Shown here: piece by piece, positions 15,017-17,260 of the stretch
How positions within the stretch are numbered: position 1 is the first letter of the stretch
Layout: each line of letters starts with the position of its first letter
DNA from: a virus
IMG/VR virus record: IMGVR_UViG_3300025151_000220
Location: 1 to 28,158 of that record
Length of the DNA stretch: 28,158 nucleotides
Strand: one strand, 5' to 3'
Position numbers and translations under genes: made by a program
Notes under the pieces: generated by a model
What the model saw: only the letters and a program-made list of their open reading frames with translations
Database searches by the model: none
What the model was told of the DNA's origin: nothing

Positions 15017-15175
15017 TTATTCATTATTGGTTTCAACCATTTCAGTTGACTTTTCTATAATCCAAGTTCTTAATGAAACAGGTAAACAATATAGCTCTGT
15101 CCATGTCCAGCCAAAGTCTTTCATCAACCTCAAAAACATCTTATAAACGCTAGAGATATACTCATTGCTCAGGGT
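15017..15175 (-). CDS. Out-of-frame C-terminal extension of the tail chaperone (gpGT-like)
   Basis: A 52-codon frame (ACC at 15175 to TAA at 15017-15019) lies in the +1 frame relative to the gp26-like gene and overlaps its end. Its translation contains DFGWTWTELYCLPVSLRTW, a compact protein-like sequence with conserved-looking W, Y, P and R. The frame is closed by a TGA at 15185-15187, with no ATG before codon 13 and no ribosome-binding site there, so it is best read as an extension reached by +1 (or -2) slippage on the T7 run. It fills the otherwise empty 160-base gap before the tape measure. Alternatives: a 41-aa gene from the ATG at 15139, or a sequencing indel. Confidence 0.6.
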   Translation of the reverse strand, partial: TLSNEYISSVYKMFLRLMKDFGWTWTELYCLPVSLRTWIIEKSTEMVETNNE

Positions 15176-15980
15176 AAAAAAAGCTCAAGCCAACAGGCAC
15201 ACCTCCTTTGTTGATAGATTCACAATTTGAGCACTCATGCTCAAAACTGAAATCAACACCGGGAAGCAAATCAGAATAGTTCTTCATAAAATGTCTTGAA
15301 TCTCTTAAAGGCATGTTCTTAATAAAGTTAGCTAAGAACAATGGATCTTCATTGTCATTAATAGAAACGAATATTTGACGATATCTCTCAATTAATAGCT
15401 CTTCTGGCAGATTGTGCTTCTTCTTTTGTTTTACTCGCTTCTGAATTTCTTTCTCATCATCGCCAGTAAGGACTTTTGCTTTAATAACAGCCTTAGTTAT
15501 AGGCAACTCAATAACAATACCGCCGTCTTGCTTTATTTTATCAAAGTCAACTTCGTAATGCTTTACTTCAGATAGATTTACTGAGGCATCATTAGAGGCT
15601 TGACACTTTTCACATACATAACTGAACTCAAATATTTCACCATATGCATTTGATCTACAAGCAATTTGAATTGCGCTCTTGTCTGAGTTAAGTAATGAGT
15701 CTACTTTAATCCTCTTATCAATTAACACAGATTCAATAACTCGATCTAACACCTCTCCAGACTGAATATAAGATTGATTTAGAAGAATGTCTTCTTCCTT
15801 TGTTGTCATATACTTTATTTCAACTGAATCTTTGTTATAGAGGGGGTGTTGTTCTGGATATAGTAAACCTCTTGATGGTAGATCTACTAACATTGTTGGA
15901 GGCGTATATACATTAGCACCTCCGCTTTGTGCTTGAGCCATAGCTCGCAACAAGCTTTCGTCAATTTGTGGGTTGTTCAT
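15162..15980 (-). CDS. Tail assembly chaperone / baseplate hub assembly protein, T4 gp26-like
   Basis: 272 aa of the T4 gp26/gp51-type family (T4_baseplate). N-terminal LPSRGLLYP at 34-42, the YMTTKEEDILLNQ segment at 57-69 and a helical core precede two CxxC pairs (C123/C126 and C250/C253) that could form a zinc ribbon. The sequence ends with the family's FFYP motif at 267-270. Its position between tail tube and tape measure is where other phages encode the G/GT chaperones that load the tape measure. AAGAGG lies before the ATG. The FFYP codons form a slippery run leading into a downstream frame, so two products may be made. Confidence 0.8.
   Translation of the reverse strand: MNNPQIDESLLRAMAQAQSGGANVYTPPTMLVDLPSRGLLYPEQHPLYNKDSVEIKYMTTKEEDILLNQSYIQSGEVLDRVIESVLIDKRIKVDSLLNSDKSAIQIACRSNAYGEIFEFSYVCEKCQASNDASVNLSEVKHYEVDFDKIKQDGGIVIELPITKAVIKAKVLTGDDEKEIQKRVKQKKKHNLPEELLIERYRQIFVSINDNEDPLFLANFIKNMPLRDSRHFMKNYSDLLPGVDFSFEHECSNCESINKGGVPVGLSFFYPEQ
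15173..15182 (-). promoter_or_regulatory. Candidate slippery site TTTTTTTACC
   Basis: Seven T followed by ACCC at codons F267-F268-Y269-P270 of the gp26-like gene. A Phe-tRNA on TTT can re-pair perfectly after moving +1 or -2, and both shifts lead into the extension frame. The zero frame reaches its stop three codons after TAC, at 15162-15164. Confidence 0.55.
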
Positions 15981-15996: not shown

Positions 15997-16674
15997 TTAA
16001 AAATTACTTTGTGCTGCAACAGAAGCAGCGTATGCACCAGCCGCGTCAGTGACCTCTAGAGTGGCGAAATCATACTTTAGGGATACATCTATGCTTGTTA
16101 GAGAATCTTGCTCGTATGAAAGCTGTGATGGCTTTACAGCGGTAATAAAAGCTCCGTGAAGAGTCCATGTTTCCACAATATTGCCTTCATCATCCAGTGA
16201 CTTTATTTTAACAGGTCCGAGCGATTCTTGTAAGACTGATTTTGACAAATCTTTTGCATATGAAGAGTTTGTTCCTCCCATTACTGGAGATTCTCTACTT
16301 AAATCATCTGGGGTATCCCAAGAGTAATCTGTTAGTTTCTTATAGAAAAGACCTAATATACTTGTAAAAGTATAACCATCAAACAATTCTCTAATAGTAA
16401 AAGAGATTGGCTCCCAAGTTATGGTAGTTGGATATGAGAAAGTCCAGTTTAAAAGCTTTGCATCTTGTGTTTGTAGGGTATACGAAGGGCGACTTACATT
16501 AATAATATAAGCAACATTAACACCTCTTAACTCTAAAAAGAAGCGATATGAATTTTGTAAGTTACCTTCTTGTAGTACTGCGGCTCTTGGAGCAACACCA
16601 TCTTTTAAAAGAGAGTTTTCATGTGAACCGACTACACCAGATCCAAATTTAGTGAATGGAGACTTCTTCGCCAT
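15997..16674 (-). CDS. Second tail tube-like protein (paralogue)
   Basis: 225 aa related to the 185-aa tube protein upstream. Both contain a GRP/SRP turn after the first strands, a TTITWEPISFTI strand pair and the C-terminal unit VETWTLHGAFITAV followed by a DVSLKYDFATLEV strand. The N-terminal 35 residues and an Ala-rich C-terminus (about 212-225) are extra. T4 gp48, gp54 and gp19 share this fold, so this copy may be a tube initiator, terminator or minor ring; which one cannot be told. No Shine-Dalgarno is visible; a CCTATTTAT motif lies 3 bases before the ATG. Confidence 0.75.
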   Translation of the reverse strand: MAKKSPFTKFGSGVVGSHENSLLKDGVAPRAAVLQEGNLQNSYRFFLELRGVNVAYIINVSRPSYTLQTQDAKLLNWTFSYPTTITWEPISFTIRELFDGYTFTSILGLFYKKLTDYSWDTPDDLSRESPVMGGTNSSYAKDLSKSVLQESLGPVKIKSLDDEGNIVETWTLHGAFITAVKPSQLSYEQDSLTSIDVSLKYDFATLEVTDAAGAYAASVAAQSNF

Positions 16675-16677
16675 ACT

Positions 16678-16686
16678 ATAAATAGG
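16678..16686 (-). repeat. CCTATTTAT motif copy before the second tube gene
   Basis: One-base variant of the ACTATTTAY motif, 3 bases upstream of the ATG, the same spacing as at the tape-measure gene. Confidence 0.4.
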
Positions 16687-16702
16687 CTTTGATTAAAATT
16701 TA

Positions 16703-17260
16703 TTAACCAATGGTTACTAGATCTTGGTTGATCTGTAGGTCTGCCCAGTCGTAAACAATTGTTAATGAGATGTTGAGTAGATCTTCTGAACCATAATCTA
16801 AGTCATCGTGAGATACTTTGCTAATCCAAGCATTGTTTAGAGTCCATGTCTCAGCTACAACGCCTTCTGCATTTAAAGCTTGAACCTGAATAGTACCTAA
16901 GTTACCTTGTACAAAGTTTCTCTTTGAGATTGACTTTCTGTGGTTCTCGTTATCACCAGCCCATGAAGAGGGAGAGAAGTAACCAGCATCTCTAATGATA
17001 TTGAGAAGTCTTCTGGAAGCATCAAAGTCAATTGGGTCTACCAAACTAACTTCGATATTGTCCCATGTTACTCTACCGGGGAACTTGAACTCATGACCTA
17101 AGAAGTTATGCTTTCCACCCTCGGATACATTAATATTAGGTCTACCAGCAGTACGAACTACCCAAGCTGGAACATCGCCTAGAATAAGAATAAATTTAAA
17201 TTTTCTTTTAGGCTCGATTCCTGCTGATTGCCATGGTGGTAAATTAGTAGCTTGTGCCAT
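16703..17260 (-). CDS. gp19: Tail tube protein, T4 gp19-like
   Basis: 185-aa subunit of the inner tail tube; T4 gp19 is 163 aa. Visible strands of the tube beta-barrel are KFKFILILGDVPAWVV, the GRPNINVSEGG turn, KFPGRVTWDNIEVSLVDP (the VTWxxIxVxLxDP signature of tube proteins), and VAETWTLNNAWISKV followed by LLNISLTIVYDWADL. It follows the sheath by 16 bases, as gp19 follows gp18 in T4, with AGGAGA before the ATG. It should polymerise inside the sheath around the tape measure. Confidence 0.9.
   Translation of the reverse strand: MAQATNLPPWQSAGIEPKRKFKFILILGDVPAWVVRTAGRPNINVSEGGKHNFLGHEFKFPGRVTWDNIEVSLVDPIDFDASRRLLNIIRDAGYFSPSSWAGDNENHRKSISKRNFVQGNLGTIQVQALNAEGVVAETWTLNNAWISKVSHDDLDYGSEDLLNISLTIVYDWADLQINQDLVTIG

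Follow-up and report, generated by a model that had tools for sequence, protein, structure and literature searches.

Tail assembly chaperone genes of tailed phages are read with -1, -2 or +1 frameshifts, and a 2016 review set T4 apart from this practice (PMC5009743). Phage lambda shifts by -1 to make G and GT, phage Mu shifts by -2, and the shift in the archaeal myovirus HSTV-2 is very likely +1 (PMC5009743). In the Vandenendeviridae phage Adele, a -1 shift takes place at GTTTTT, a poly-T site that ends the short form, and the region downstream had earlier been annotated as a separate gene (PMC12846349). Tail assembly chaperones of T4-like phages were identified by Vladimirov, Gautam and Davidson (2022, Virology 566:9-15), a paper that later authors cite for a short gene accompanied by a fused long gene and for -1 poly-T sites. 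A first-pass annotation of the locus described here had supposed that frameshifting was undescribed in the T4 gp26/gp51 family; this is wrong, as judged from the use of that paper as a source on T4-like tail chaperones. The chaperone pair is therefore already known. The branch that we describe, in which the shift would go in the unusual +1 direction, looks new, no description of it having surfaced in a literature search that missed most subscription papers.

We analyzed a 28,158-nt stretch of viral DNA (IMG/VR record IMGVR_UViG_3300025151_000220; hereafter the window), in which one locus very probably makes two tail assembly chaperones from a single gene through a +1 slip, as judged from sequence comparison (Table 1). 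The zero-frame gene belongs to the T4 gp26/gp51 family (Pfam T4_baseplate): its product matches PF12322 with an E-value of 9.9e-12 and 45.4 bits (cut-off 24.5) over profile positions 13-207 of 219, and PHROG 150 (baseplate hub) with an E-value of 3.6e-13. The gene is placed between tail tube genes upstream and the tape measure gene downstream, the latter being annotated at the equivalent place in Flavobacterium phage immuto and Listeria phage LIS04. In the window, the tape-measure open reading frame starts 15 nt past the +1-frame stop, and its product found no convincing match of its own in Pfam or PHROG. Upstream, the two tail tube paralogs are adjacent (15997-17260). Lambda G/GT likewise sits between tail tube and tape measure genes and joins a short zero-frame product to a shifted C-terminal domain; the lambda shift is -1.

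Table 1. Features of the tail chaperone locus, in window coordinates.
Feature	Position	Strand	Evidence
Tail tube protein, upstream	16703-17260	-	Pfam Phage_T4_gp19, E = 1e-8; PHROG 4542, E = 4e-20
Tail tube paralog, upstream	15997-16674	-	PHROG 4542 (tail tube), E = 3e-14
Short chaperone gene (G / TAC-N / T4 gp26 type), zero frame, 272 aa	15162-15980	-	PF12322 and PHROG 150
Shift window, between +1-frame TGA (15187-15185) and zero-frame TGA (15164-15162)	15162-15185	-	Sequence and open-frame list
Putative slip site, seven T (TTT TTT T)	15176-15182	-	Sequence; UUU then U/C in 72/72 distinct relatives
Predicted +1-frame extension (T / TAC-C-like domain), FFTLSNEYISSVYKMFLRLMKDFGWTWTELYCLPVSLRTWIIEKSTEMVETNNE and stop	15017-15181	-	pN/pS, three-helix model, profile match to cyanophage -1 extension
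Next gene, probable tail tape measure protein, 538 aa	13385-15001	-	Position

At its 3′ end, the zero-frame gene reads AGC TTT TTT TAC CCT GAG CAA TGA on the minus strand, with AGC at 15185-15183, the two TTT codons at 15182-15180 and 15179-15177, TAC at 15176-15174 and CCT at 15173-15171. The +1 frame has 55 open codons including GCT, from 15184 to 15017, and is closed directly upstream by the in-frame TGA, which confines a shift to the stretch bounded by the AGC codon and the stop of the zero frame. Counting from the first Phe, the first ATG in this +1 frame comes at codon 15, and no GTG or TTG lies before it. In a locus with an identical site sequence (L002), the -1 frame meets a stop a few codons after the run, and the extension lies in the +1 frame. 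We modelled the short form and the extension separately. The AlphaFold2 model of the short form has a mean pLDDT of 87, and in its own model the extension is predicted to form three helices in a compact unit (pLDDT 88), with the first ATG of the window's +1-frame extension falling within helix 1. Fold searches of the PDB returned no match with E < 0.001 for the short form or the extension, and a PDB sequence search returned nothing convincing.

Relatives were gathered from a viral-contig search (80), to which we added five named isolates and one uncultured huge phage. The junction could be read in 76 loci, corresponding to 72 distinct genes (the five named isolates included), and the same layout recurs throughout. 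A UUU codon precedes a U or C, the zero frame runs on only briefly to its stop, and a conserved domain follows in the +1 frame, where the extension lies in all 72 distinct genes. The slip site reads TTT TTT TGG CCT in 47 of these genes, TTT TTT TAC CCT in 11, TTT CTA TGG CCT in 7 and TTC TTT TGG CCT in 2, with five further variants found once each. Rhodothermus phage RM378 likewise fits, with the site TTT TTT TGG AAT. One relative (L015, 3770-3830) has two tandem copies of the slip motif, giving FFGLNSECIETFFGINSEY in the +1 frame and a second TTTTTTTGGC about 33 nt downstream; in another (L076, 3720-3790), the +1 extension ends early after GNARFFI, probably through a base error in that contig. 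No relatives were confirmed in bacterial genomes by a search with one pattern, and searching viral contigs with the genes of Vibrio phage Bakedbeans and of Atu_ph07 yielded no further relatives. Three long relatives (100-159 kb) carry one PF12322 copy each, so no T4-style second gene is seen there.

Taking one representative per 80%-identity cluster (n = 31), we found the +1 frame open for at least 54 codons (median 75), as against a median of 4 in the -1 frame. Read in the +1 frame, the extension has a pN/pS ratio of 0.28 for the window group and 0.20 for the marine FFWP group, compared with 0.88-1.77 when read in either of the other frames; for a small set of greater diversity, the +1 frame has 0.58 versus 0.88 and 1.26. 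Purifying selection acts on the +1 frame alone. Codon choice at the junction is also restricted: CCT makes up 28 of the 29 Pro codons that follow the slip site, compared with a usage of roughly 31% (binomial p ~ 2e-13, ignoring remaining relatedness), and the Tyr codon at the slip site is TAC in 11 of 11 genes, though TAT is commoner in these genes. Both are expected from coding in two frames. What we find is a conserved second frame that overlaps the chaperone 3′ end, has no start of its own and is under selection, as in G/GT-type pairs.

These comparisons bear on most of what the first-pass annotation had proposed. Its coordinates and its description of the gene end, the run and the downstream frame hold against the sequence and the open-frame list. 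The alignment of related genomes that it recommended shows the position of the run, the frame offset and the downstream frame to be conserved across the 72 distinct genes, and this conserved frame has, as it had noted, a stop just upstream and no early start of its own. Its central proposal, a programmed frameshift in a gp26-type chaperone yielding a G/GT-like pair, is supported by the recurring layout and the selection on the +1 frame. It had also wondered whether FFxP might be a conserved slippery sequence. FF(W/Y)P does overlap the slip site, but FLWP, FLFP, FFRP, FFHA and FFST also occur, so FFxP is not universal; what the sites share is a UUU with U or C after it.

The direction of the shift had been left as +1 or -2. 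A -2 ribosomal shift at the seven-T run, as is known for phage Mu (PMC5009743), would enter the same frame as +1 and add one residue more. Phe-tRNA could re-pair fully after such a slip in the window and in the other relatives with seven T. The interrupted runs, however, argue against it. At TTC TTT TGG (L018 and L019), TTT CTA TGG (7 genes), TTT CTT TGG (immuto) and TTT CTA TTC (LR756508), all with the same downstream frame, a -2 slip would put Phe-tRNA on UCU, AGU, GCU or ACU, which allows no acceptable pairing, whereas a +1 slip would keep it on UUU or UUC. Re-pairing after -2 at every homologous site, the mark of a Mu-type shift, is therefore not what we see. Because several slip-site variants are unable to shift -2 while all are able to shift +1, +1 programmed frameshifting is the best reading; it fits all relatives, and we consider the -2 alternative very unlikely.

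Slippage by RNA polymerase on the T run would instead produce some mRNAs one U shorter, from which the long form could be made without any slipping of the ribosome. Seven T are present in 23 of the 31 clusters, as such a process might favor, but seven is a short run for efficient polymerase slippage, and the remaining 8 clusters, with runs of 3, 4 or 6 T, keep the same frame arrangement. We regard transcriptional slippage as, if anything, even less probable than a -2 shift. Nor do we give much credence to the downstream frame being a separate small gene, expressed from an internal start or by coupling at the zero-frame stop. In cyanophages, the homologous region is annotated as a gene of its own, the small gene 51, which has an ATG, and small open reading frames are annotated at the extension in immuto and SP-15. 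Against this, conservation extends back to the slip site, and the first ATG lies anywhere from 8 to 46 codons into the extension, is absent in 1 of the 31 clusters and in the window would begin translation inside the first predicted helix. Finally, although the break falls at a homopolymer run, a continuous gene broken by one base through sequencing or assembly error or pseudogene decay can be dismissed: the same seven T in contigs from other metagenomes (L002 and L003, 99-100% protein identity) and in more distant relatives show that the run is not a sequencing slip, the identical break recurs in independent contigs and isolates, also at interrupted runs, and the extension is under purifying selection.

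Under +1 frameshifting, most ribosomes would terminate at 15162 to give the short form of 272 aa. In a minority, the P-site Phe-tRNA on a UUU that precedes a U would slip +1, skipping one base, perhaps by re-pairing from the UUU at 15179-15177 to that at 15178-15176. The exact slip codon is one that we infer, and a slip from the second UUU in Listeria phage LIS04 would land on UUA, which makes the first UUU the likelier site there. Reading on in the +1 frame as far as 15017 would add a further helical domain, for a long form of about 320 aa. If the pair works as lambda G/GT does, the short form may coat the tape measure protein encoded by the next gene and the long form may bring in tail tube subunits. 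Slipping in cells, its rate and this division of labor between the two forms are likewise what we infer.

A familiar +1 event offers a comparison. In the bacterial RF2 gene (prfB), which shifts at CUU UGA C, the P-site codon re-pairs with a U-rich +1 triplet, much as is proposed here. The RF2 site has a stop codon at the A site, whereas the window group has a sense codon, UGG or UAC, and no Shine-Dalgarno sequence is conserved at the close RF2 spacing among the relatives. Downstream RNA structure does not appear as a general stimulator either (mean z of -0.59 over 55 distinct 70-nt stretches). The window does carry a strong Shine-Dalgarno-like AAAGGAGGT inside the chaperone gene (15209-15201) that is common to close relatives; we set it aside as a stimulator, since it lies 18 nt before the T run and occurs in the nearest relatives only. 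Mu and HSTV-2 also shift into this frame in a tail chaperone gene, HSTV-2 very likely by +1 as well, but they belong to other phage groups. Adele resembles the window group in its poly-T site and in the earlier annotation of its downstream region, and differs in shifting by -1.

Elsewhere in the family, the direction differs. P-SSM2-like cyanophages have T TTT TTC at the site, and 76 of their 77 readable contigs carry the extension in the -1 frame; in the remaining one (L152), a motif search found no extension. A -1 extension also occurs in isolates of Vibrio, Xanthomonas, Acidovorax and Pseudomonas phages and of Ackermannviridae, in some cases at a less canonical site (CTT TTC or ATT TTC, for example). 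T4-like -1 relatives of this kind (U UUU UUC) thus differ from the window, whose extension is in +1. In Synechococcus phage S-SCSM1 (L092, 5669-5874), the extension is in +1 with its own ATG while the site is still T TTT TTC, possibly reflecting separate initiation or a sequence error. T4 shares the PF12322 family with the window group but has two genes: gp26 matches the profile over its full length, and gp51 has an additional C-terminal tail. Frameshifting has reportedly been retained in several T4-like groups, with T4 itself said to use genes 26 and 51.

In a tree of short forms, the +1 group occupies one half (support 100/100) together with two long-branched -1 members, and the other half holds the remaining -1 members and the T4 and AS4 pairs. 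The two long branches are huge phages (Atu_ph07, L091, 2444-3510; LR756511, L090, 2501-3400), and their placement is unsure. In profile comparison, the cyanophage -1 extension matches the +1 extension on one side (probability 83%, E = 9e-6) and the C-terminus of T4/AS4 gp51 on the other (probability 97%, E = 8e-11); the direct match between the +1 extension and the T4 gp51 C-terminus, at 1.2%, is not significant. The extension would thus be linked to the gp51 C-terminus in two steps, via the cyanophage -1 version. The +1 branch is large and mostly uncultured, and includes uncultured marine myoviruses and phages of Flavobacterium, Microcystis, Bacillus, Listeria, Streptococcus and Rhodothermus. 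We think it probable that this deep branch of the gp26 family, separate from that of T4, relies on +1 frameshifting at UUU-Y with a sense codon in the A site and no recognizable stimulator, that the other branch uses -1 or split genes, and that the direction has switched at least once with the protein pair kept.

In public records of these phages, the extension is a hypothetical protein or absent, which can now be corrected. A +1 site beside a sense codon would also be a useful natural model, because no general +1 motif has been established (PMC10885494). That a single family has the same pair by +1, by -1 or as two genes lends support to the chaperone reading, and these three routes suggest that what is conserved is the two products, not the way of making them.
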